Shown in pieces: positions 568-12,813 of a stretch of 12,825 nt of DNA. The stretch's first letter is position 1; each line of letters begins with the position of its first letter. The DNA comes from an uncultured Methanobrevibacter sp. (lineage in GTDB: Archaea > Methanobacteriota > Methanobacteria > Methanobacteriales > Methanobacteriaceae). Below the pieces are notes generated by a model. That model had not been told where the DNA came from, ran no database searches, and saw only the letters and a list, made by a program, of their open reading frames with translations. The translations under genes and the position numbers were made by a program. The DNA is taken from positions 1 to 12,825 of the forward strand of contig CAMODR010000009.1 in NCBI GenBank assembly GCA_946611495.1. Direction: 5' to 3'.

Positions 568-1608
568 ATGAATAATAAATATCTTGAAAATGGTAATGTA
601 ACAAAAAGAGAAATTTGGGTGGATTATCTAAAAGCAATAGCTATTTTTTTAGTAATATTCCCACATCTTGGAGTGAATGATAAATTTTTTATCACAAGCA
701 TGATCATAAACATTCCCCTATTCTTTTTCTGTTCAGGATATTTATATAAGCAGATAGAAATAAAAAAAGCATTTAAAAAGTATTTTTATCGTTTAATAAT
801 ACCCTATATATGCTTTAACATATTTGAATTTGTATTTGAATCCTTATTAGAACATCACGAAAGTGCATCTGCATTCCTACATAATTTAATCTCAAATTTT
901 GATATAACTTACCTCATTACATTTTTCACAGTAGATGTGCATGGAACTCATTTTAACATGATGACATGGTACCTGATAGCATTATTTGTTGTTTTAATCC
1001 TATTCACCACACTAAAACAATATCTTAAAAACGATAAGCAACTTGTTGCAACCATGTTAATTTTAGTGGCTTTAGCTTACTTGCTAAATATGTTCGAATT
1101 ACAAATTCCTTGGGAAATTAATGGAGCTCTTGTTGGAATAGCATTTTTCTTTGTAGGATATTTGTTTAAAAAATACAAGTTACATGAATTTATGAGCAGC
1201 AATAATATTCTAAATTTTATCATATTAATTACGTTTCCATTGGTATCAGTAATCCTAGCTTTGAAAGGAAACAAATTCAGCTGGTTTGTTGGGGGCATTT
1301 ATGGGAATATATTACTATCATATGCATCCTCATTCCTATTATTATTTTTCATGATTTTAGTGACCTACACCCTTCAAAACAGGAATAAGCTCATATATTT
1401 AATAAGTGTTAACACTTTAACAATAATGGGTTTGGGAGTGAGCGCTATAAAATTATCCGATAAAACAATGAAATTAAGTAGTTTAAATACAGTTGACAAA
1501 ATAGTTTTAACAGCACTCATATTAATAATTCTTGCAATAGTTGGAGAATTATTAACCCGATATGTCCCTATTATTGTAGGTAGAAAAAAATTAAAAGAGA
1601 GTGATTAA
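568..1608 (+). CDS. Acyltransferase-3 family membrane protein (putative glycan O-acyltransferase)
   Basis: A 346-residue, strongly hydrophobic protein with about ten predicted membrane segments, which is the usual size of the acyltransferase-3 family. These integral membrane enzymes move acetyl or other acyl groups onto surface sugars or lipids. The N-terminal signature is present: WVDYLKAIAIFLVIFPHLG, with the family Asp (D19) and the presumed catalytic His (H33). Next come the short motif FFFCSGYLY (residues 52-60), a basic loop (KKYFYRLIIPY), and the WYL motif at 134-136. The last segment ends in a basic cytoplasmic tail. The substrate cannot be read from the sequence. Its place beside glf suggests modification of a galactofuranose-containing or other surface glycan. 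The gene has no clear ribosome binding site. It is followed by about 1.2 kb without an intact gene. Confidence 0.8.
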   Translation: MNNKYLENGNVTKREIWVDYLKAIAIFLVIFPHLGVNDKFFITSMIINIPLFFFCSGYLYKQIEIKKAFKKYFYRLIIPYICFNIFEFVFESLLEHHESASAFLHNLISNFDITYLITFFTVDVHGTHFNMMTWYLIALFVVLILFTTLKQYLKNDKQLVATMLILVALAYLLNMFELQIPWEINGALVGIAFFFVGYLFKKYKLHEFMSSNNILNFIILITFPLVSVILALKGNKFSWFVGGIYGNILLSYASSFLLLFFMILVTYTLQNRNKLIYLISVNTLTIMGLGVSAIKLSDKTMKLSSLNTVDKIVLTALILIILAIVGELLTRYVPIIVGRKKLKESD

Positions 1609-1879: not shown

Positions 1880-2319
1880 ATTAAATTCAAAGCCCAGATA
1901 GGAAAATATATTATTTCAATCAAATACAAAAACTTCTGAAGAAATCTAAACTTAATTCCATTTAAATAATTAATTGAAAAAAGAAATAATTTCAGAATTA
2001 AAAATATTTTGTCAGATGAAAATCTAACAAAAAACAGATATGAGGTAATTTAAAAGAAGAAAATTCATTAGAAAACATAATTCAAATATTTCAAGAATTT
2101 TTATTAAAAAACACTTCTGAACATTATTTTTAATCAGGCAAAAGATAAAGCATTAAAATTAATCAAGAAAGACCAGGAATATTCAAAGAATAAAACAAAA
2201 AATATAAAAATTAAAAAGGAGTTAAAAAATTACAGAAGTTAGATAATTCTATTAGATTCAAATAACGGATGTCTTCTTGCTTTAGAAAAATAGGTAATAT
2301 ATTAAGAAAATTAAACTGA
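1880..2319 (+). pseudogene. Decayed C-terminal part of a glycosyltransferase with coiled-coil tail
   Basis: No open frame survives, but fragments in shifting plus-strand frames read like the tail of the coiled-coil glycosyltransferases found elsewhere in the window. Around 2003-2110 the pieces ILSDENLTKNRYEVI and NSLENIIQIFQEFLLKN appear. From 2132 a frame gives NQAKDKALKLIKKDQEYSKN and then the lysine-rich NIKIKKELKNYR. At about 2250-2319, after one or two small indels, the sequence resembles LDSNxW followed by FRKIGNILRKLN and a TGA at 2317-2319. The order basic coil, Ser-rich SW turn, LRK-rich end matches the intact genes at 10448-12813. The upstream border is uncertain: the catalytic domain is not recognisable, and 1609-1880 shows nothing I can assign. 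The reading is by eye and needs a translated search. Confidence 0.55.
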
Positions 2320-2457
2320 TTCGATTAGATATTCAAGGACAATGTAGGATAGAGAAATCATAATAATGGAAAACAAATCATCAAACAATATAATATATTG
2401 GCTTTTTCGTATCAGATGAAATTTTTATTCAAAAAATTTAATAATTTAAAAATCTAA

Positions 2458-2512
2458 TAATAATATGGAGAATAGTTATCACATCTCAAATTAACACTAT
2501 TCTCCATTATTA
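2458..2512. terminator. Inverted repeat between two convergent gene remnants
   Basis: GGAGAATAGT (2467-2476) and ACTATTCTCC (2496-2505) are perfect 10-base inverted copies around a 19-base loop. Pairing resumes outside a two-base bulge with TAATAAT (2458-2464) and ATTATTA (2506-2512), giving 17 pairs in all. It lies between the 3' end of the plus-strand glycosyltransferase remnant and the 3' end of the minus-strand glf remnant. That is where a bidirectional terminator would sit. No long T run follows, so an alternative is a small mobile-element scar. Confidence 0.4.
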
Positions 2513-2586
2513 AAAACCATTATCTTATTCTAAAAGCCCAATATAATCACTCTGTTATCTTACATTATTCTGAAAAAATCATCAGA

Positions 2587-2737
2587 TTATATAGTTTTAG
2601 TTTCCTTGATGAATTCACATATCAAAATATTGGTACATCCGTCTTCCACGGAAGATTATGTTTTCATCATCTACCAATTCTTCATACTTCTCGTAAAGGG
2701 AGGAATTATTCTCATCATTTACAGGATAATAAAGTAA
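2587..2737 (-). pseudogene. glf: C-terminal remnant of a second UDP-galactopyranose mutase
   Basis: Read on the minus strand, 2731 to 2618 translates without a stop to a peptide starting YYPVNDENN, continuing LYEKYEELVDDENIIF and RGRRMYQYFDM. This closely follows the conserved Glf C-terminus (YYPVND-NN-LY-KY-EL---ENVIFGGR---Y-YYDM). A TGA at 2615-2617 interrupts it. After a one-base shift the frame resumes with EFIKETKTI and a TAA at 2587-2589, as expected for the terminal helix. Upstream (2738-2809) the similarity fades into IIRKLL and then nothing, so the FAD-binding and catalytic portions are gone. It lies in the same orientation as, and directly downstream of, the phosphonate operon, about 70 bases past the dehydrogenase stop. 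It is probably a leftover of a rearrangement, not a functional gene. Confidence 0.82.
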
Positions 2738-2809
2738 TTTACGAATAATTTTAAATATATTTGTTAATGTTTGAAGAATATTGATTTTTTACTATATGAA
2801 TATTAAACC

Positions 2810-3892
2810 TTATTTATAACAACAATTTAAAATATCTTGAATTTCTTCTTCATTGAAAACAATTGGATTATTATCCATTCGTCCTCCAGTAGTAGCTAAC
2901 TTAACAATATTTGGTATTTCTTCCTTTTTAACTCCAAAATTTTTCAAATTAATTTTTTCACCTGAAACAAGTTTAAACCAATCAAATACTTCATCCAAAC
3001 TATCAACACCAAATGATTCTAAAAATAATTCTTTTTCTTTCAAGTAATCCCAGTTTCTTTTTAATATTTCAAATAGGGTTATTGACACAGCAAATCCATG
3101 ATTAATCCCATAAAGCATAGTTAAAGGATAGGATATTGAATGTGCCGCAGTTGTTCGAGTATTGGAAAATGCAAGTCCTGCAAAAAAGGAACCCATTAAC
3201 ATCTTCTGCCTATACTCCAAATTATCCAAATCTTCTAAAACTAATGGCAAATATTTGCTAATTATTCTAATTGAGTCTCTTGCAAGCACTCTGGTGTATG
3301 AATTTGAAGCATTAGACCAATAGGATTCCATTGCATGAGCCAAAGCATCCAAACCAGTAGATAAAGTTAAATCATGCCCCATTGTAGAAGTAAGCTCAGG
3401 AACTATCCAAGATTCAAATGGATATAAATAATCTGCATCGATGGAGTATTTTTTCAAATTATCCATATCCCATATTGTCGCCCATTTAGTGCATTCAGAT
3501 CCTGTTCCAGCAGTGGTGGGAACTGCTACAATAGGAATATTTGATTCATTTTCCAAATATTTTTTAGATTTGATTAACTCCAGCACGTCTTCATCATTGT
3601 ATTCATATAATGCAGAAATTGCTTTTGCAAGGTCAATCGAACTTCCACCACCAATAGCAACAATCAAATCAGGCCTGAAAATCTTATCCAAAACTTTCTC
3701 GACCAAATGAATATCGGGATTAGATAAACTTTCATCTAAAACTTGAAAGCTTGAAACATCCAAATCAAAAGTATTAATTACTCTTTTAGAAGCAATAAGC
3801 AGAGTATTACTATCAAATTCTTTTAATCTATTTTTTAACTCTTTCAAATTATACTCATGAAATTTAATGGGAACGTTATAAATCCAATTCAT
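2810..3892 (-). CDS. Iron-containing alcohol dehydrogenase, probable phosphonoacetaldehyde reductase
   Basis: A 360-residue group III (iron-dependent) alcohol dehydrogenase of normal family length. The nucleotide-binding turn GGGSSIDLAK is at residues 81-90, the PTTAGTGSE motif at 125-133, and all four expected metal ligands are present: D182, H186, H251 and H265. Overall it resembles PhpC-type enzymes that reduce phosphonoacetaldehyde to 2-hydroxyethylphosphonate with NAD(P)H. The substrate is inferred mainly from context: the start codon overlaps the stop of the phosphonopyruvate decarboxylase gene by four bases (ATGA), and PEP mutase lies just upstream. Removing the aldehyde makes the unfavourable mutase step productive. 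An AGAGGTTGG ribosome binding site sits inside the end of the decarboxylase gene, suggesting translational coupling. It is the last gene of the operon. Another alcohol substrate cannot be excluded. Confidence 0.85.
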   Translation of the reverse strand: MNWIYNVPIKFHEYNLKELKNRLKEFDSNTLLIASKRVINTFDLDVSSFQVLDESLSNPDIHLVEKVLDKIFRPDLIVAIGGGSSIDLAKAISALYEYNDEDVLELIKSKKYLENESNIPIVAVPTTAGTGSECTKWATIWDMDNLKKYSIDADYLYPFESWIVPELTSTMGHDLTLSTGLDALAHAMESYWSNASNSYTRVLARDSIRIISKYLPLVLEDLDNLEYRQKMLMGSFFAGLAFSNTRTTAAHSISYPLTMLYGINHGFAVSITLFEILKRNWDYLKEKELFLESFGVDSLDEVFDWFKLVSGEKINLKNFGVKKEEIPNIVKLATTGGRMDNNPIVFNEEEIQDILNCCYK

Positions 3893-5004
3893 AAACCCAA
3901 CCTCTTTTTAAATTCATTCTTATTTTCATTTGGTGTTGTGGTCGGCCTACCCAGATCTTTTCTAGAAGAAATATCTACATCAATATTTAAAAATACAGGT
4001 CCTTGATCTTTAATAAACAAAGGCAATACCTCTTTCAATTCATCAAGGTTTCTTGCATTGTACACTTTATAGTATCCGCAGGATAAAACCAAGTCTTCTA
4101 TTTCTATCTGATTCATAATTGTTGGAAGTCCTCCAACGCTTTCATGGGCAGAATTATTAAACATTACATGATAGAAGTTTTCAGGTTTTTTAGAGCCAAT
4201 CAAAGCAATGGAACCCATATGCATCAACAACGCACCATCTCCATCAAAACAAAAGACTTTTTTTTCAGTATTTAATGCAACACCCAATGCTATGCTTGAA
4301 GAATGGCCCATTGAACCAACTGTTAAAAAATCATTTCCATGCCCTTGATTCAGAGCTTCGCGATATTCAAATAATTCTCTTGAAGACTTCCCTGTAGTGG
4401 AAACAACAATATCCTCTTCAGTTAAATGATCCACAATTGTTTGAATTGCCTGCTCTCGTGTAAGGATGTTGTCATTTTCTTTTTTAATCTTATAATCCTT
4501 AAATGCTTTTTTAGATACCACAATTGCTACGCTTTCACCATTATTTAACTTTTCAAGGAAATCATTTTCAAATGCATCTACTAACTCATTGAACTCAGAA
4601 TCTTTTGTAATATTGATATGGGATATATCCAATAAATCCAATAAGTCAGGCGTAATCGCACCCTGCTTAATGTGCTGAGGTTCATCATGAACTCCAGGTT
4701 CTCCTCTCCAACCTATGATATAAATTATAGGAATGGAATAAACTTTTTCATGAGTTAGAGATGTTACAGGATTAACAATATTTCCAAGGCCGGAATTCTG
4801 GAGGTAAACAACCGGATATCTGTCTGTTGCAAGATTATATCCTGTAGCAATAGCTAATGCATTTCCTTCATTAGCTGCTATTATATTTTCACAGTTTTCT
4901 TCGACATAATCACAAAATGAAGATAATTGGGAGTCCGGAACTCCGGTGAAAAAACCAATATCCCTGCTTTCAAAATAACTAACTAAATCTTTAACATCAA
5001 TCAT
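3889..5004 (-). CDS. ppd: Phosphonopyruvate decarboxylase
   Basis: A 371-residue thiamine-diphosphate enzyme that decarboxylates phosphonopyruvate to phosphonoacetaldehyde, the irreversible step that pulls phosphonate synthesis forward. The N-terminal pyrimidine-binding domain has GVPDSQLSSF (21-30) and the catalytic Glu in AANEGNALAIATGY (E46). The loop WRGEPGVHDEPQH (99-111) is characteristic of Ppd. The C-terminal domain has VGSMGHSSSIALG (229-241) and the ThDP/Mg motif GDGALL (255-260), completed by the NNSAHES segment (283-289). The related sulfopyruvate decarboxylase of coenzyme M synthesis is a likely confusion in methanogens. The single-chain length and the neighbouring PEP mutase and dehydrogenase argue for phosphonopyruvate. 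The gene starts four bases after pepM with a GAGG ribosome binding site in the end of pepM, and overlaps the dehydrogenase by four bases. Confidence 0.92.
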   Translation of the reverse strand: MIDVKDLVSYFESRDIGFFTGVPDSQLSSFCDYVEENCENIIAANEGNALAIATGYNLATDRYPVVYLQNSGLGNIVNPVTSLTHEKVYSIPIIYIIGWRGEPGVHDEPQHIKQGAITPDLLDLLDISHINITKDSEFNELVDAFENDFLEKLNNGESVAIVVSKKAFKDYKIKKENDNILTREQAIQTIVDHLTEEDIVVSTTGKSSRELFEYREALNQGHGNDFLTVGSMGHSSSIALGVALNTEKKVFCFDGDGALLMHMGSIALIGSKKPENFYHVMFNNSAHESVGGLPTIMNQIEIEDLVLSCGYYKVYNARNLDELKEVLPLFIKDQGPVFLNIDVDISSRKDLGRPTTTPNENKNEFKKRLGL

Positions 5005-5008
5005 GTTT

Positions 5009-6304
5009 TTATTCCTCAGGAATTAGTGTTAAAATCTCTTTAATAGATAAGCATTTATCATCCACTTCTTTTGATCTTTCATTTTCAAGAATTAGCTTGG
5101 CTGTTTCCTGCATTGCAGGATAAGCACTTCTAATTAAATGATTTGCATAAATAATGATATTTACTCCTTTTGCTGAAAGCTCTTCTTCATAAACTTGGTT
5201 ATATGAAGTTGGAACAACCACCAAAGGAATTTCGGGTGCAAATTCTCTAAATTTATCGCAAAATTCAAATATTTCATCAGGCTGCTTTTCACGACTGTGA
5301 ATCATGATGCCATCAGCACCCGCTTTAATATATGCTTTTGCTCTTGAAAGGGCATCTTCCATACCTTGCTTCAAGATTAAACTTTCAATTCTTGCAATAA
5401 TCATGAACTCATCGGTTTTAAGGGCGCTCTTACCTGCATGCAACTTCTCACAGAAGTGTTCAATGCTATCTTGTGTTTGTTCGACCTCTGTTCCAAATAG
5501 AGAATTTTTTTTCAAGCCTATCTTGTCTTCAATAATTATAGCGGATACTCCCAGTCTTTCTATGGTCTTGATATTAAATACAAAATGTTCTATCAATCCG
5601 CCGGTATCTCCGTCAAGAATAATTGGCTTTGTTGTCACTTCCATTATTTCATTAATTGTGTTTATTCTTGAAGTCATGTCAACTAGTTCAATGTCCGGTT
5701 TTCCCTTTGCCGTTGAATCTGTCAAGCTTGAAATCCACATTCCATCAAATGAGTTGATTTTTTCATCTTTCTGTACTTGAGTATTTTCGACAATCAATGC
5801 TGAAAGCCCATTATGTGCTTCCATGATTCTAATTGTTTTTTTAAGTGATAAAAGTTTTTTAAGTTTTCCTCTTCTTGATTCAGGGATTGAATCTGATTGT
5901 TTGATGATGCTGTTGATTTGATCAATGCTGACATCCTCTGTATATGGAATTTCTATCAGTTCTCCGCCCCATCCCTTTAAGGTCTCAATAACACTTTGTC
6001 TTATCTGGCTTTGAGAACCTTCTTTCCAGTCATCACCATGAAAAACATAGTCTGGCTTTAATTGATTCAAGTTTTCAGTATAATCCAATGTCTTCTGGGG
6101 AATTATTTCTTTTACTCCAACAATGTTTTTAATTATTTCACATCTATTTTCATAATTCAAGACCGGCAGTCTTTTATATGTTGCTATTGCCTCATCAGTT
6201 AAAACTCCGACAGTCAAATCTCCATATTCTGATGCTTTTTTAATTAAATTGATGTGTCCATGGTGTAGAATATCCGCGCTTACTGCAATATATACCTTTT
6301 TCAT
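5009..6304 (-). CDS. pepM: PEP phosphomutase fused to an N-terminal cytidylyltransferase-like domain
   Basis: A 431-residue two-domain protein. Residues 1-135 form a cytidylyltransferase-like fold of the glycerol-3-phosphate/TagD type, with HHGH (14-17) for the HxGH motif and GDDW (90-93). The usual RTxGxSTT motif is altered to YTEDVSID (121-128), so activity of this domain is uncertain. Residues about 155-425 are PEP phosphomutase, which rearranges PEP to phosphonopyruvate and forms the C-P bond. The mutase signature EDK-x5-NS is intact (E259, D260, K261, N267, S268), as are DGDTGG (231-236), R305 in IARIES, and H336. Together these separate it from isocitrate-lyase-like relatives. The ATG overlaps the stop of the upstream nucleotidyltransferase by four bases (ATGA). 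Fused nucleotidyltransferase-PepM proteins are known in bacterial phosphonate loci where the product is put on polymers or lipids. Confidence 0.94.
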   Translation of the reverse strand: MKKVYIAVSADILHHGHINLIKKASEYGDLTVGVLTDEAIATYKRLPVLNYENRCEIIKNIVGVKEIIPQKTLDYTENLNQLKPDYVFHGDDWKEGSQSQIRQSVIETLKGWGGELIEIPYTEDVSIDQINSIIKQSDSIPESRRGKLKKLLSLKKTIRIMEAHNGLSALIVENTQVQKDEKINSFDGMWISSLTDSTAKGKPDIELVDMTSRINTINEIMEVTTKPIILDGDTGGLIEHFVFNIKTIERLGVSAIIIEDKIGLKKNSLFGTEVEQTQDSIEHFCEKLHAGKSALKTDEFMIIARIESLILKQGMEDALSRAKAYIKAGADGIMIHSREKQPDEIFEFCDKFREFAPEIPLVVVPTSYNQVYEEELSAKGVNIIIYANHLIRSAYPAMQETAKLILENERSKEVDDKCLSIKEILTLIPEE

Positions 6305-6993
6305 TTTATCAACTCTTTAATTCTATTTAAATCTTCAACTGTGTCTATTTCCTGACATAAATCTCCCTTAATGTCTGTTGGAGTTATAGCAATCTCATCT
6401 GATAATGCATTTTCTGCATAAACATTAACTTTTCCATCCATACAGAATTCACGGATATTATTTTTCCAAATTTTCCAATCTTCTTTTTTTATTTTGTAGA
6501 ATGGCTGGCAAGCAACTGCATCATCATCAAAATATTTGGTTGAAATGCATTTAACTTTATTGTCTTCTATTTTTGCTTTAAAATCATCCTTTGGAAGGGG
6601 AATAGTTGAATCTGTAACAACTGTTGTTACTTTTGAATTTATAATTTTCTCTGCCACTTCATCTGAAAATACTAAGTCCCCATGCACCAAAATTACATCA
6701 TCATCTATATCAGGAATTAAATCAATTGATTTGATATAATTGGTTGTTCCATATTCTGGATTATGAATGAATTTAAATGAAATATTTGAAAAATTATTTG
6801 CATAATTTTCTAAAACAAGATTTAAATAACCGGTAGTGATGATGAATTCATCGATATCAAATTTTGATAAAATTTTTATGGCTCTTGAGAAAATAGTTTC
6901 ATTTTCTGTTATCTTAACTAATGATTTAGGATTATTTTTAGTTAATTCTTTTAATCTTGTACCCATTCCGGAGTTTAAAATAATAATTTTCAT
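6301..6993 (-). CDS. LicC/PntC-like nucleotidyltransferase, probable phosphonate cytidylyltransferase
   Basis: A 230-residue GT-A-fold sugar-phosphate/choline-phosphate type nucleotidyltransferase. The N-terminal loop is LNSGMGTRL (residues 6-14; usually AAGxGTRL), followed by NPKSLV (21-26), YGTTNYIKSI (81-90), the metal aspartate in HGDLVF (D106), and a late EIDTVEDL (215-222). This arrangement resembles CTP:phosphocholine (LicC) and CTP:2-aminoethylphosphonate (PntC) cytidylyltransferases. As first gene of the operon it would activate the phosphonate, most plausibly 2-hydroxyethylphosphonate, to a CMP conjugate for transfer to a glycan or lipid. Substrate and nucleotide are inferred from context. 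A sugar-1-phosphate substrate is the main alternative. There is no Shine-Dalgarno sequence before the ATG, but a TATA-like element about 25 bases upstream suggests a leaderless transcript. Its stop overlaps pepM by four bases. Confidence 0.85.
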   Translation of the reverse strand: MKIIILNSGMGTRLKELTKNNPKSLVKITENETIFSRAIKILSKFDIDEFIITTGYLNLVLENYANNFSNISFKFIHNPEYGTTNYIKSIDLIPDIDDDVILVHGDLVFSDEVAEKIINSKVTTVVTDSTIPLPKDDFKAKIEDNKVKCISTKYFDDDAVACQPFYKIKKEDWKIWKNNIREFCMDGKVNVYAENALSDEIAITPTDIKGDLCQEIDTVEDLNRIKELIK

Positions 6994-7586: not shown

Positions 7587-8396
7587 TTGATTAATATGAT
7601 TACTGAACACCACATTTTAAGCAATTTTAATCAAGAAATTAATGAAATGGAAGAGGAATTTCGACTTATGTATTTTGCATCAGAAATCGTTGAAGGAACC
7701 TTCAATTTCTTTAAAATCAGACGAATAAGCTCCAAAGTCGGCAAGCCTCCTTTTAATCTCAAAGATATGATTAAACTAATTTTTTACGGCCATATTAACA
7801 AAATAACCAGCAGCGTGCAAGTCGCTTATCAGGCGAAATACAATCATCTATACCGATTGATTTCAAACTCCGCCGAACCCAGCGACAGAACAATCAGAGA
7901 CTATAACAAGTACTTCCAGCCAATCTACCAACTAATAATGAGTTTTATCCTGTATGCGGCAAAAACTATCGGATTAACAGATTTTAAGCATCTTTCCATT
8001 GATGGAACAATAAAAAGAGCTCACAACTCCCCATTCAACTTAATCAAAGAAAAAGACATCAAATTGCTCGTAAAACATTATTTGGTGGAAGAATTAACAA
8101 AAGAAGAAATTAAAAAGCTTAGGCGAACAGCACGGAAATTTATGGACGATAAATCAAAAACAGATAAGGAAAAAGTCGATATTCTTTTTCATTGGCGGCA
8201 TTTGCTGGACTGTTCGGGCCAAAAATCCCTTGCTTTGAATGATCATGATTCGAGATTAATGAAAATTAAGGATAATGGCCAGAAATATCCTAAATTTTCA
8301 TTTAACGTTCAGTTGGGAACAGATACGAAATCCAAGCTGATTTGCGGCGTTAAGTCGTCCAAAGCCCAACAGATCATTATCAAATTCCAGCCTTGA
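7587..8396 (+). CDS. IS1182-family transposase, N-terminal part (frameshifted)
   Basis: This is the first part of the IS transposase. The open frame can begin at TTG 7587, but ATG 7596 (MITEHHILSNF) is the likelier start. It contains the N-terminal helical DNA-binding domain typical of the family (KPPFNLKDMIKLIFYGH, about residues 53-69, and EPSDRTIRDY, 97-106). It also holds the first catalytic Asp in HLSIDGTIKRAHNS (D139 counted from TTG). The natural frame ends near codon GTT at 8349. The last residues after that (SSKAQQIIIKFQP) are out-of-frame read-through to a TGA at 8394. The missing DDE residues are in the following piece, so this product alone should be inactive. Confidence 0.88.
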   Translation: MINMITEHHILSNFNQEINEMEEEFRLMYFASEIVEGTFNFFKIRRISSKVGKPPFNLKDMIKLIFYGHINKITSSVQVAYQAKYNHLYRLISNSAEPSDRTIRDYNKYFQPIYQLIMSFILYAAKTIGLTDFKHLSIDGTIKRAHNSPFNLIKEKDIKLLVKHYLVEELTKEEIKKLRRTARKFMDDKSKTDKEKVDILFHWRHLLDCSGQKSLALNDHDSRLMKIKDNGQKYPKFSFNVQLGTDTKSKLICGVKSSKAQQIIIKFQP

Positions 8397-9055
8397 TGAA
8401 TCAGATCCTCGTCAATTTAAATACAAAACCAGAGAAAATCAGCGCGGATACGATTTATCTAACGATAGCAAACCTGGAATATTTGAAAAACTTGGGAATA
8501 ACTGCTTTAATTCCAACATCACTGCAAAATAGAAAGAATTCAGGCAAAATGCCTGACAATCCATTTGCTATAGATTACTTTGTATTTAATGAATATAAAA
8601 ATGTTTTCATTTGCCCCAATAACGAAGAATTAACCTTGGATGGAACTTATCCCGCGCCACAAGAAAAAGGAGGGCAAAACAAGCTTAAATTAATCTATTC
8701 TAACTTCAAAGCCTGCAACAAATGCATAAACAAGGGAGTGTGCTTTAAAAAAGGACATAGAACCATAACAAGGTACGTTCATGAACTTACATACGAAACA
8801 GAGAGAATAATATCATCCAAAGAAGGATTAAAGGATTATAAATTGCGTTCACGAACAGTGGAAGCACATAACGGCACTTTCAAAAACATCTACCATTATG
8901 ATTTCATCCCAATAACCGGTTTAAAAAGAGTTCAGAACCTAATATTCGCAATTGTAGCTTCGTACAACCTAATAAGACTATATAATCTGATAAACGATAA
9001 CAAAATGGACTTAAATTCAGTTATACAAAAAATAAGGCAAATATCATCAGATTAA
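8354..9055 (+). CDS. IS1182-family transposase, C-terminal part (frameshifted)
   Basis: This is the second part of the same transposase. Native sequence starts at about 8354 with VVQSPTDHYQIPAL, a segment normally continuous with LICGV of the first part. An isolated start at TTG 8393 or ATG 8396 is possible but unlikely to be used. The piece has the second catalytic Asp (SADTIY, D19 counted from 8393), a cysteine cluster (C74, C108, C111, C117), and the catalytic Glu in RSRTVEAHNGTFKN (E157). It ends with the hydrophobic family tail RVQNLIFAIVASYNLIRL. Inserting one base after 8353 would restore a single protein of about 490 residues. No slippery heptamer is visible at the junction, so programmed frameshifting looks unlikely and the element is probably dead on its own. 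Confidence 0.88.
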   Translation, partial: VVQSPTDHYQIPALMNQILVNLNTKPEKISADTIYLTIANLEYLKNLGITALIPTSLQNRKNSGKMPDNPFAIDYFVFNEYKNVFICPNNEELTLDGTYPAPQEKGGQNKLKLIYSNFKACNKCINKGVCFKKGHRTITRYVHELTYETERIISSKEGLKDYKLRSRTVEAHNGTFKNIYHYDFIPITGLKRVQNLIFAIVASYNLIRLYNLINDNKMDLNSVIQKIRQISSD

Positions 9056-9155: not shown

Positions 9156-10169
9156 ATGATTAATATGCATGAAAATAGAATTTTTTATTATGATTTTTTA
9201 AGGGCATTTGCAATACTTGCTGTTGTTATGTGTCATATAGGATTCTTTTTTGGTTCATTAGATACCTTAACTAAAATAATCTATCACGATTCCATTCATG
9301 CAATTGGTTTGATGGGAGTTCCAATTTTTTTAATGCTTACAGGAGCATTATTATTAAATAAAAAAATTTCATTACCTAAATTTTTTAAAAGACGTTTTTC
9401 AAGAATTTGTTTTCCATTTATTTTTTGGGTAGTTATTATCCTAGCTTCAGGGTTTTTAATTTTTAATTGGAATCTTGAAATAGCACTAAGGAGATTTATG
9501 GGTGAAGCTTCAATACTTTGGTATTTTTGGACATTGATTGGAATTTATTTATTTATACCAATTATTAACTCATTTATAAGAGAATACCAAATGAAAGGTT
9601 TAGAATATTTTTTGATAATATGGTTTTTTACAATTTTACTAAAAACTTTTCAATTATGGCCTTTGTTTCCTCCCTTTGAATTTAATTTTAATTTTGAATT
9701 AAACTATTTTACCGATTTTATTGGGTTTGTTATTTTAGGTTATTATTTAGATAATAAAGATTTCAAAATTAATTCTATTAATATGCTAATAATTTCATGT
9801 TTAACATTAATTATTTCAATAGGGTTATATGATTACCTAATTTTAAATCATGTTTATATAGGGCCTGTATATCAAAATTTAATTAATGTATTCATGGCTA
9901 TAGGAATCTTTTTATTCATAAAACAATTGGATAAATTAAACATATTGGAACATATGAAAGATAATTTAATCGGCAAATTAATTACTTCATTAAGTATCTA
10001 TAGTTACGGCATTTATTTTGTTCATTTTATCATTTATCATTATTTCATGTTATTTGATTTTCATTCAAATAAAATGATTCCCATAATGATAATTATTGTT
10101 TTAGGAATTTCATGTGGAATAATATGGATTTTAAGTAAAATTCCCTATATAAATAGGGTTAGTTATTAA
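9156..10169 (+). CDS. Acyltransferase-3 family membrane protein (WecH/OafA-like)
   Basis: A 337-residue polytopic membrane protein with about ten hydrophobic segments. The N-terminal signature is YYDFLRAFAILAVVMCHIGF, with the conserved Asp (D13), Arg (R16) and presumed catalytic His (H27). It continues with GVPIFLMLTGALLL (54-67), a basic loop FFKRRFSRICFPFIFW (76-91), and LWYFWTLIGIYLFIPI (121-136), which is typical of O-acetyltransferases of the WecH/OafA type. The role is probably acetylation or other acylation of a surface polysaccharide. The start may be ATG 9156 or ATG 9165; neither has a Shine-Dalgarno sequence. It is only distantly similar to the acyltransferase at 568, so it is not a recent duplicate. 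It lies directly downstream of the IS and convergent with the glycosyltransferase pair. Confidence 0.85.
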   Translation: MINMHENRIFYYDFLRAFAILAVVMCHIGFFFGSLDTLTKIIYHDSIHAIGLMGVPIFLMLTGALLLNKKISLPKFFKRRFSRICFPFIFWVVIILASGFLIFNWNLEIALRRFMGEASILWYFWTLIGIYLFIPIINSFIREYQMKGLEYFLIIWFFTILLKTFQLWPLFPPFEFNFNFELNYFTDFIGFVILGYYLDNKDFKINSINMLIISCLTLIISIGLYDYLILNHVYIGPVYQNLINVFMAIGIFLFIKQLDKLNILEHMKDNLIGKLITSLSIYSYGIYFVHFIIYHYFMLFDFHSNKMIPIMIIIVLGISCGIIWILSKIPYINRVSY

Positions 10170-10433: not shown

Positions 10434-10449
10434 AAAAATCATGATTTTT
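10434..10449. terminator. Palindrome at the end of the glycosyltransferase pair
   Basis: AAAAATCATGATTTTT is a perfect 16-base palindrome overlapping the stop codon of the minus-strand gene. Read on the minus strand it ends in a run of six T, as expected for an archaeal terminator. It lies in the 278-bp convergent gap, which otherwise shows no gene, and could also stop the plus-strand acyltransferase transcript. Confidence 0.4.
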
Positions 10450-11653
10450 ATCTTGAAAAAAATTTTTTTATTAATCTTAAAGGTTTTGTAATTTTCCAAG
10501 ATGATGAATTTAATAACTGCTTGTTTTGTTTTTTAACCTTTTTATAAGTCCTGTTTAAATTTTTATTTTTCTTTTTAAGAGTCTTTATATCTTTGTTTAA
10601 AGAAGTGATTTCACTATTTAAAAAATCAATTTCATCTTTTAAGGACTGAAATTCCTCATCAGAAAAACAATTTTGAGAAGAGAATCTTAATAAAAATAAT
10701 GGAGACCGATATTTATAATAAATCCTTTGATGACGACGTTTTAATTTATTGTCAAGAATATCCTTATCCACTCTTTTTAATACTGTTTGAATTAAATTAC
10801 ACACTTCAAAACTAAGATTTTCATCATAACCCTCATTATGTTCAAAAATTATTTCTATATACCTAAATAAACGTTTATACAATTCTATTAAAATTTTTTC
10901 AGAATGTAAATCATATTTGTCTAGAATTTCATAAATATCTAAAATTCTTTTCATTGGTGCAGTTAAATCAAAAGAGTTATTTGAAGAAGAATCAGGATTA
11001 GATACTCTGTAAAAATAATAAGGTTTATCTGTATAAACAATACATTTAGCTAAACAAGTTGTTTCATAGAAAAATGGATTATCCACCCATCCTCCACCAG
11101 GAGCCTCTATCATGCGAATACTATTTTCATCTAAAAAATCTTTACGATAAATACCAGACCATACCGAAGGATGACCATCAAGTATCTCTTCATTCCCATC
11201 GATATTGAAACATTCATGTAACGGTAGACTTTTTTTAACTGGTTCAATTTTTTTTATATGTTCACTACTTAAATCATCATAATGATAAAATACCCCTTTG
11301 ACCACATCAACGTTAGAATTATTAGTTAATCCATATAACGATTCAAGCATATCCAACTGAATAAAATCATCCGTTTCAATAATACTTATGTATTCTCCTA
11401 TAGCTATTTCGAGCCCCAAGTTTACTTGATGACCATAACTTTTTTCATTAGAAATTAATAATTTTGATCGAGGATCTTTATCAACATATTCCTTTAAGAC
11501 TTCTTGTGTTCCATCACTGGATCCCCCATCTATAAATATTACTTCTATATCTTTTAAGGTTTGATTTAAAACACTATCTACACATTCTTTAATATATTTT
11601 CTTACATTTAATGAAGGCATGATAACTGAAATTTTTGGTTTTTCCATGTCCAT
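10448..11653 (-). CDS. Family 2 glycosyltransferase with C-terminal coiled coil
   Basis: A 401-residue glycosyltransferase, presumably cytosolic or membrane-associated, that adds sugars to a surface glycan precursor. The GT-A domain begins at once with ISVIMPSLNVRKYIKECVDS (residues 8-27). It has IDGGSSDGTQEVL (41-53) for nucleotide binding, the metal motif ETDD (93-96), and a likely acid motif WVDNPFF (189-195). Residues about 335-380 are a lysine/asparagine-rich coiled coil, followed by LLNSSSWKITKPLRLIKKFF (380-399). There is no transmembrane segment; the basic tail may bind the membrane or a partner. The ATG at 11653 has an AGGTG ribosome binding site five bases upstream. It follows the other glycosyltransferase by 14 bases and is co-transcribed with it. 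The donor and acceptor sugars are unknown. Confidence 0.92.
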   Translation of the reverse strand: MDMEKPKISVIMPSLNVRKYIKECVDSVLNQTLKDIEVIFIDGGSSDGTQEVLKEYVDKDPRSKLLISNEKSYGHQVNLGLEIAIGEYISIIETDDFIQLDMLESLYGLTNNSNVDVVKGVFYHYDDLSSEHIKKIEPVKKSLPLHECFNIDGNEEILDGHPSVWSGIYRKDFLDENSIRMIEAPGGGWVDNPFFYETTCLAKCIVYTDKPYYFYRVSNPDSSSNNSFDLTAPMKRILDIYEILDKYDLHSEKILIELYKRLFRYIEIIFEHNEGYDENLSFEVCNLIQTVLKRVDKDILDNKLKRRHQRIYYKYRSPLFLLRFSSQNCFSDEEFQSLKDEIDFLNSEITSLNKDIKTLKKKNKNLNRTYKKVKKQNKQLLNSSSWKITKPLRLIKKFFSR

Positions 11654-11658
11654 AATAA

Positions 11659-11663
11659 CACCT
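11659..11663 (-). promoter_or_regulatory. Ribosome binding site of the glycosyltransferase at 11653
   Basis: AGGTG on the minus strand, five bases before ATG 11653, within the 14-base gap between the two glycosyltransferase genes. Confidence 0.6.
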
Positions 11664-11667
11664 AAAC

Positions 11668-12813
11668 TTAAATTTTGTGTTTTAATTTTCTTAAAATTTC
11701 AGTAGATTTCCAACTTCTTGAAGATAAAATTTCATCATACTGTTTTTTCAATTTTTTATTTTGCTTTTTTAATTTCTTGTTTTCACGTTTTAATTTTTTA
11801 ATTTTCCTATCATCATCATATTTCTGTACAGTTAAAATTAATTCCTTAGATGTGTTTGCAATAAGAGTTTCATCTAAAATTAATTTATTGCGAGGTGTCA
11901 AAATATCTACTAACAAGTCATAAAATTCTTTATCAAAAACCCAATTTTTGAAATTTTTCTGCATTTCAAAAAAATATAACTGTTTGAATTCATCTTTAAT
12001 CTCGAGTAATCTCCTATATACCAATTTAATTTTTCGATTATATGCTGTAACATTGTATGTTTCATCATCTAACAAACCAAATTTTTCAAATACTTCTAAT
12101 ATCAAATCATTGACCGTTATGAAATCTAGAAAACGTTTGTCGCCTGCTCGTGTAGACGATGCATCATACCATCTTCTTGTAAATAGATGTTCTTTAAGGA
12201 AATAAATTCTTTTTGCACTAAAGAAGACTTCCCAAAAGAAAACATTGTCTTCAAAAATAAGACCTTCGGGGAAAGTTGCTCCACATTTTTCAACAAATTC
12301 CCTATTATATAATTTACTCCATGGAGCGACACTAATGGTAAAAGCAAGATCACCTATATCTTTATAATCAAAAATTTCATCTCCAACAAAATCTGCTAAT
12401 TTATTCATACTGTACATTTCATTAGCATATGTTCTATCTGTAGCTTCATCGTAGTTCATAGCTTGGAAAAGTACAAAATCAACTTGTTTCTCTTCAGCAA
12501 CATTATAAGTTTTTTCCAGTGCTTCTAAATCCAACATATCATCGGAGTCCATTAGATATAAGTATTTTCCTTGTGCAAGTTTCATGCCATTATTAGTTGC
12601 AACGGCATGACCTCCATTTTTTTGAGAAATTACAGTAATTCTATCATCTTTTTCTGCATAAGAATTTAAAATATCAAGTGATTTATCAGTGGACCCATCG
12701 TTAATGCATATAATTTCAATATCTTTCAAAGTTTGATTTACAATACTATCCATGCAAATATTCAAATATGGTTCCACATTATATACGGGGATTACAACAG
12801 ACACTTTAACCAA
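11668..12813 (-). CDS. Family 2 glycosyltransferase with C-terminal coiled coil
   Basis: A 381-residue glycosyltransferase. The GT-A domain starts VSVVIPVYNVEPYL (4-17), with INDGSTDKSLDIL (37-49), the metal motif MDSDD (88-92), and an acid motif FEDNVFFWE (187-195). The tail has a strongly basic coil (about 336-362, repeated KKLKxxNKKLKK units) and then LSSRSWKSTEILRKL (363-377), matching the tail of the neighbouring glycosyltransferase. The start is TTG at 12813-12811. It is chosen because GGTGGTG lies five bases upstream, the same layout as the next gene, and because MVKVSVVIPVYN is a normal family start. A start further right, outside the window, is not needed. It is the upstream member of the pair and may be part of a longer operon entering from the right. 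The sugar specificity is unknown. Confidence 0.92.
   Translation of the reverse strand: MVKVSVVIPVYNVEPYLNICMDSIVNQTLKDIEIICINDGSTDKSLDILNSYAEKDDRITVISQKNGGHAVATNNGMKLAQGKYLYLMDSDDMLDLEALEKTYNVAEEKQVDFVLFQAMNYDEATDRTYANEMYSMNKLADFVGDEIFDYKDIGDLAFTISVAPWSKLYNREFVEKCGATFPEGLIFEDNVFFWEVFFSAKRIYFLKEHLFTRRWYDASSTRAGDKRFLDFITVNDLILEVFEKFGLLDDETYNVTAYNRKIKLVYRRLLEIKDEFKQLYFFEMQKNFKNWVFDKEFYDLLVDILTPRNKLILDETLIANTSKELILTVQKYDDDRKIKKLKRENKKLKKQNKKLKKQYDEILSSRSWKSTEILRKLKHKI

Follow-up and report, generated by a model that had tools for sequence, protein, structure and literature searches.

Predicted synthesis and CTP activation of 2-hydroxyethylphosphonate by an operon in a surface-glycan locus of an uncultured Methanobrevibacter

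Introduction

Which phosphonate is made by a four-gene operon in a surface-glycan locus of an uncultured Methanobrevibacter sp., and which enzyme prepares it for transfer? The operon lies on contig CAMODR010000009.1 of assembly GCA_946611495.1 (G000:C9), and this entire contig of 12.8 kb is the window analyzed here. It belongs to a metagenome-assembled genome (MAG) which is fragmented into 291 contigs and 62.8% complete. The operon codes, in this order and all in one direction on the minus strand, for a LicC/PntC-like nucleotidyltransferase (NTase), a phosphoenolpyruvate (PEP) mutase (PepM), a phosphonopyruvate decarboxylase (Ppd), and an iron-type alcohol dehydrogenase (Fe-ADH, in comparisons ADH). 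We consider 2-hydroxyethylphosphonate (HEP) its likely product, which would be activated with CTP and then transferred to a surface glycan; the substrates, the transfer and the acceptor are those that we infer from sequence.

Results and Discussion

Enzymes of the operon and the proposed pathway

In the proposed pathway, PepM would convert PEP to phosphonopyruvate, Ppd would turn this into phosphonoacetaldehyde, and Fe-ADH would form HEP from the latter. The separate NTase would couple CTP and HEP to CMP-HEP, acting as a HEP-adapted relative of PntC in which a histidine replaces the glutamate that holds the amine. Finally, a LicD-type phosphotransferase encoded elsewhere would probably pass the HEP group to a glycan made by the neighboring glycosyltransferases.

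PepM and Ppd exceed the curated cut-offs of their profiles (Table 1), and the EDK-x5-NS signature of PepM is intact (EDKIGLKKNS, residues 259-268). Fe-ADH lies above the Pfam cut-offs for PF00465 and PF25137, and its metal ligands were found by pattern (D182, H186, H251, H265). All motifs checked for catalysis are present across the four genes according to the pattern search. A first-pass annotation of the locus, which had described a four-gene phosphonate cluster with an intact PEP mutase signature, a Ppd, an iron-type dehydrogenase with all metal ligands and a LicC/PntC-like nucleotidyltransferase, is thus borne out in these assignments, the last of them by PF00483, motif and fold as described below.

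The separate nucleotidyltransferase and residue 104

The AlphaFold2 model of the NTase has a predicted local distance difference test (pLDDT) score of 96. Its fold matches 6pd2 and 1jyk, and the motif GXG(T/S)RX4-8PK is present, by which the enzyme is placed with LicC and PntC. In PntC, Glu104 is positioned to bond the amine of 2-aminoethylphosphonate (AEP), its counterpart in LicC being Asp105 (PMC6697681). The NTase of the window carries His104 and thereby lacks the acidic amine-site residue of the AEP-specific PntC (E104) and the phosphocholine enzyme LicC (D105).

Loci were sorted by the neighboring enzyme into ADH clusters and clusters with an aminotransferase (AEPT). In the first set, residue 104 is a histidine in 43/43 ADH-cluster NTases that could be aligned (the ADH row L018 lacks letters at the site) and a glutamate in 11/11 of AEPT clusters; L056, which has ADH and AEPT matches both nearby, carries a histidine. 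This rule and the clamp pattern described below were both picked after the first alignments, and a later set, drawn and gammaproteobacterial, is the sole subsequent test. For the drawn part, genomes were taken evenly from the class of Lachnotalea, regardless of the window. PepM was present in 32 of 391, and regions were extracted from 31 of these (Lachnotalea excepted), with no overlap with the first set. NTase profile matches below 60 bits were excluded in the later set (L203, L205, L211, L214, L215, L218). Among the drawn loci, a histidine was found in all 14 ADH loci with an NTase and a glutamate in all 7 AEPT loci. Pooled, and including L197 from outside the drawn sample, the alignable NTases show histidine in 58/58 ADH clusters and glutamate in 18/18 AEPT clusters. 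In one locus of the same class (L198), a HEP-type (His) and an AEP-type (Glu) PepM cluster adjoin, each with its own residue.

In the Gammaproteobacteria, the class of L016, 34 PepM places were found, of which 20 were examined. Separate NTases of AEPT clusters carry aspartate (10/11) or glutamate (1/11) at position 104, and NTase domains fused to PepM carry tyrosine (11/11 scored). In these fusions (L221, L222, L224-L227, L229-L232, L234) the GxG(T/S)R motif is altered, and 10 of the 11 have a separate Asp-type NTase nearby, which makes them another two-NTase pathway with one enzyme looking altered.

Furthermore, 19 loci encode the NTase as a fusion with ADH, and an NTase-CyTase-PepM fusion, with the cytidylyltransferase (CyTase) domain described in the following section, occurs at 11 of the 32 PepM places in the 31 regions of the drawn set, ADH being near 10 of the 11. 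Both fusions tie the NTase to the phosphonate pathway and parallel the known fusion of PntC to AEPT.

A second nucleotidyltransferase domain fused to PEP mutase

The first 138 residues of PepM form a PF01467 cytidylyltransferase domain, 52% identical to the CyTase fragment of Fom1, with the motifs HxGH (HHGH, residues 14-17) and HGDDW (residues 89-93). The structure it matches, 5x3d, we take to be that of Fom1. By these matches the operon holds two nucleotidyltransferase domains, of which the earlier reading had overlooked the CyTase. The CyTase of Fom1 makes CMP-HEP in fosfomycin synthesis, and both domain types have been reported around PepM, fused and unfused (PMC6697681). In the stretch shared with Fom1, 12 CyTase positions separate ADH from AEPT clusters, and Fom1 and the window have the same ADH-type letter at six of them (9, 10, 41, 44, 73, 98).

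The motif RTxGISTT has been reported as CTP-binding in this class of enzymes (PMC8262930). The window CyTase does not have it and reads YTEDVSID, as compared to YTPGISST in the Fom1 fragment, and the genome also encodes a TagD-like protein that retains RTKGISST. In the model, this clamp stretch has low confidence (mean pLDDT 62, CyTase residues 121-130). Across the loci, with L006, L007, L008, and L010 left out of the counts as repeats of L124, L126, L122, and L125, GIS[ST][ST] is intact in 16/17 ADH clusters without an NTase within ~5.5 kb and in 6/44 with one (38/44 lost). The exception without NTase and clamp is L116, whose genome (G123) also contains another cluster, L118, that includes an NTase. 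In the later set, the clamp is intact in none of the 16 ADH loci with an NTase, namely 15 His-type loci, including L197 from G142 outside the drawn sample, and the gammaproteobacterial L219, which reads DISSS. Where an NTase is lacking, L217/L218 (one genome) and L220 retain the clamp, and L185 does not; because L220 and L079 of the first set share a contig, the net gain from the later set is one genome that fits the pattern and one that contradicts it.

Based on this, the separate NTase is the likelier activator of HEP, and the fused CyTase is probably an older or second CTP:HEP site which lost its clamp and is not the main activating enzyme. The reverse assignment, in which the Fom1-like CyTase activates HEP and the separate NTase another substrate, e.g., a phosphorylated sugar or polyol of the glycan, seems unlikely to us. 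HxGH is conserved in all 104 rows (of 106) that have letters at this site, an argument against a dead CyTase, and in Fom1, which is reported to be active, the arginine of RTxGISTT is replaced by a tyrosine. Against this assignment stand the loss of a motif reported as CTP-binding where an NTase is present, the fusions of the NTase to ADH or PepM at many loci, a residue 104 that follows the phosphonate type, and an NTase fold nearest to PntC and LicC.

Surface-glycan context and the transfer step

The operon is flanked by genes for a UDP-galactopyranose (UDP-Galp) mutase, two acyltransferases, two family-2 glycosyltransferases and an IS1182-like transposase (Table 1). This supports the surface-glycan setting named by the first-pass annotation, with the acceptor being predicted. 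The cell wall of M. ruminantium is phosphate-rich, and homologues of teichoic-acid genes are described for it (PMC2812497).

Table 1. Annotated features of the window, with positions, strand and basis of the assignment
Feature	Position	Strand	Basis
LicC/PntC-like nucleotidyltransferase (NTase), 230 aa, H104	6301-6993	-	PF00483; 1jyk E 1.2e-9; 6pd1 E 9.3e-8
Codon for H104 of NTase, aligned with E104 of Tde-PntC	6682-6684	-	alignments; role of E104 from PMC6697681
Whole PepM gene, two-domain	5009-6304	-	
CyTase domain, N-terminus of PepM, residues 1-138, Fom1-like	5891-6304	-	PF01467; 5x3d E 5.6e-47
CTP-clamp site of CyTase (GISST position), residues 124-128, reads DVSID	5921-5935	-	alignment with Fom1
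PEP mutase domain of PepM, residues 146-431	5009-5869	-	TIGR02320, 429.6 bits (cut-off 319.55); EDK-x5-NS
Phosphonopyruvate decarboxylase (Ppd), 371 aa	3889-5004	-	TIGR03297, 447.7 bits (cut-off 312.5)
Iron-type alcohol dehydrogenase, proposed phosphonoacetaldehyde reductase, 360 aa	2810-3892	-	PF00465/PF25137
UDP-galactopyranose mutase, cut by contig end	2-388	-	TIGR00031, profile positions 1-122/378, 163.7 bits (cut-off 303.75)
Membrane acyltransferase, type 3 family	568-1608	+	PF01757
Second acyltransferase, type 3 family	9156-10169	+	PF01757
Two family-2 glycosyltransferases	10448-12813	-	PF00535 in both

The transposase (7587-9055) consists of two overlapping frames and is located upstream of the operon on the opposite strand. 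Downstream of the operon, positions 1609-2809 form a 1.2 kb AT-rich region (22.5% G+C) without an ORF of at least 80 aa.

No LicD-type transferase was found in the 12.8 kb window. Among the 13 places with the operon type of the window, LicD (PF04991) lies within the stretch examined at seven (L116, L117, L118, L121, L122, L123, L143), at a distance from the nearest operon gene of ~0.2 kb in L118, where it diverges from the NTase, or ~0.4 kb in L122 (also divergent) up to ~5 kb (L143). In G018 (L122; 73% complete), the LicD near the operon is the only one found in the genome; in G113, a genome in a single contig, the operon is at 1.1 Mb and the sole LicD found at 1.9 Mb. The genome of the window has four LicD, all on other contigs, and a TagF-like PF04464 protein. 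These four were rejected as clear orthologues of the operon-near LicD of the relatives, as the best matches reach ~33-40% identity. LicD is common in the family (89/138 genomes) and tracks PepM (26/28 genomes with PepM vs. 63/110 without, p 3e-4, kinship uncorrected). The first-pass annotation had expected a LicD-like or CDP-alcohol-type transferase outside the window, which agrees with the seven places; no LicD was found in two genomes considered below.

A selection of the neighboring genes was also scanned for candidate transferases, and those scanned were identified otherwise: an adhesin-like protein of 896 aa, a tRNA synthetase, a tRNA-guanine transglycosylase, an FtsX, a methyltransferase, a sugar NTase and a V4R regulator. 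Very long related proteins are encoded near two operons of the window type (L010:815-4570, on the same contig as L125, and L116:321-3686), the former comprising a radical SAM domain along with two glycosyltransferase domains. In the genome of the window, a fusion of a TagD-like cytidylyltransferase and a GFO/IDH oxidoreductase lies beside a TagF-like glycerophosphotransferase (L002:493-1797 and 1895-3091), which are genes of a teichoic-acid-like polymer.

That the operon serves a small diffusible phosphonate of the antibiotic type instead of a surface decoration appears improbable. The CyTase-PepM protein resembles Fom1 through its 5x3d match, and Ppd and Fe-ADH are presumably counterparts of early fosfomycin genes. 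For a similar PPM/PPD/adh1 cluster of Methanocorpusculum, described in 2023, antibiotics were indeed proposed as products (PMC10035134). The window contains no further phosphonate gene, an argument about the window, since no search for Fom3, FomD, or HppE was made in the genomes, and limited by a radical SAM domain in two of the scanned neighbors (L010, L012). The flanking glycosyltransferases, acyltransferases and UDP-Galp mutase and the LicD genes at 7/13 places point away from a diffusible product.

Weighing of the proposed pathway

Several observations weigh against the proposed synthesis, activation and transfer of HEP. The best model for the dehydrogenase is TIGR03405 (phosphonate Fe-ADH of the PsrA type), which it matches with 257.2 bits, below the cut-off of 423.7, and judged by this score the enzyme is a related dehydrogenase outside this equivalog. 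In the NTase tree (88 rows, gammaproteobacterial rows excluded), the product label changes once, which indicates that the His/Glu split is one old event between two subfamilies and not a repeated adaptation. L219, the only ADH-cluster NTase found in the Gammaproteobacteria, carries a tyrosine at position 104. Regarding the CyTase, the window and Fom1 disagree at the other six of the 12 separating positions (15, 53, 97, 100, 127, 129), and the serine of the window at position 97 is not an ADH-type letter. For the association between clamp and NTase (Fisher p 5e-9), no significance is claimed because the PepM tree gives two independent contrasts only. The locus L185 without NTase and clamp, the conserved HxGH and the tyrosine of the reportedly active Fom1 belong to the same side. 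Finally, no LicD was found in G057 (91% complete) or G111 (70%), both of which were searched, so that LicD may not be the sole transferase.

It is very improbable that AEP is the product, its aminotransferase being encoded in another part of the genome and ADH acting on another aldehyde: the absence of AEPT from a genome that is 62.8% complete means little, but His104 in place of Glu, the ADH-type CyTase letters at six positions and the AEPT searches in the 12 operon-type genomes, one of them a single contig, with distant matches only in ten (23-29% identity) and none in two, speak against it (by comparison, the fused AEPT of G083 matches at 38% identity, E 1e-80). The prediction of HEP with CTP activation, which the first-pass annotation had drawn from the lack of an aminotransferase nearby, is now better founded by residue 104 as a reading of HEP or AEP, by the fusions and by AEPT matches that are distant or lacking; its single nucleotidyltransferase has to be replaced by two domains.

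Distribution and gene transfer

In the Methanobacteriaceae, the family of the window, PepM was found in 28 of 138 genomes and 3 of 17 genera, at 30 places. Counting the window itself, 13 places in 12 genomes were classed as its operon type. Contig ends truncate two of them (L126, L143), and on the PepM tree L143 is separate from the others. The remaining places comprise 15 of a second type, one NTase-AEPT fusion (L140) and one truncated locus (L144). The second type (L127-L139, L141, L142; L127 and L128 cut short) contains PepM, a metallophosphoesterase, an NAD epimerase, DUF6564, a saccharopine-dehydrogenase-like protein, Ppd and LicD, has no ADH or AEPT within ~5.5 kb (in L131 an AEPT-profile match lies farther away), and its CyTase letters resemble the AEP type. 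Calling such a pathway unusual in a methanogen, as in the first-pass annotation, was therefore too strong, given these numbers and the clusters already in print.

A search with one genome per species yielded 113 relatives. Among the best 80 of these, the closest named PepM relatives are from Methanobrevibacter MAGs (79-81% identity), and the nearest non-methanogens are Lachnotalea (74% identity) and Herbinix (75%), with L063 being partial. Their PepM proteins nest inside the methanogen group on the PepM tree, which indicates that gene transfer between Clostridia and methanogens, in one direction or the other, has happened. In an actinobacterial search, PepM was present in 11/394 genomes, and besides G141 there was one PepM of CyTase size (G950).

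Relation to known systems

Bacteria are already known to follow this general scheme, and for one methanogen a four-gene cluster that includes PEP mutase and Ppd has been described (PMC4987999). More widely, phosphonate synthesis genes occur in bacteria and archaea, and production was demonstrated in MGI Thaumarchaeota (PMC8931226). The Pnt pathway with PntC of Treponema denticola and Atopobium rimae is alike in that PepM, Ppd and a LicC-like NTase are clustered with LicD-like or glycosyltransferase genes nearby, in the GxGTR-PK motif, and in the occurrence of PntC as a fusion with the enzyme making the final phosphonate (PMC6697681). The window operon differs from the Pnt pathway, as described there, by ADH in place of the aminotransferase, histidine in place of glutamate at the amine site, and an archaeal host. 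ADH together with this histidine leads to the prediction of HEP instead of AEP, unlike in the PntC systems.

Fom1 also has its CyTase N-terminal to PepM, in addition to the identity and the six shared letters given above. The window departs from Fom1 in DVSID for GISST, in the additional separate NTase, and in the later fosfomycin genes, which are unseen in the window. In Glycomyces and Stackebrandtia, HEP reportedly forms phosphonoglycans and is attached to exopolysaccharide. The Stackebrandtia MAG L021 has CyTase-PepM, Ppd and ADH; unlike the window, it has no LicC-like NTase within ~5.5 kb, and its GISST is intact.

A cluster similar in its setting is IE19DRAFT_01711-4 of M. millerae ZA-10, a rumen Methanobrevibacter, described in 2016 as four genes including PEP mutase and Ppd near cell-wall polysaccharide genes, for which a modification of the wall polysaccharide was guessed (PMC4987999). 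In its description, two of the four genes are identified by name and a product is not given; we infer that it is presumably the same operon. Searches of open-licence PMC papers listed none dealing with a HEP-type PntC or with methanogen CMP-HEP. Newly described here are the presence of the CyTase domain in the operon, the group of His-type NTases, the NTase-ADH fusions, and the loss of the clamp with invariant HxGH.

Implications

If HEP synthesis and activation by this operon hold true, a single residue would allow AEP and HEP to be distinguished from the sequence of a phosphonate cluster, and the two nucleotidyltransferases in one pathway would become a directly testable question. Going further, and only tentatively, the His-type ("HGD") LicC-like enzymes may form a separate, so far undescribed CTP:HEP cytidylyltransferase family of Clostridia and methanogens, with the Fom1-like domain being repurposed: its HxGH is retained in all sequences compared, and its clamp would have eroded following the takeover by the LicC-like enzyme. 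The repurposed domain might, e.g., hold HEP or CMP-HEP or regulate PepM. In this case, some methanogens would coat themselves with HEP. Phosphonate-decorated surfaces of gut methanogens, if confirmed, could affect host recognition, viruses and the use of phosphorus.

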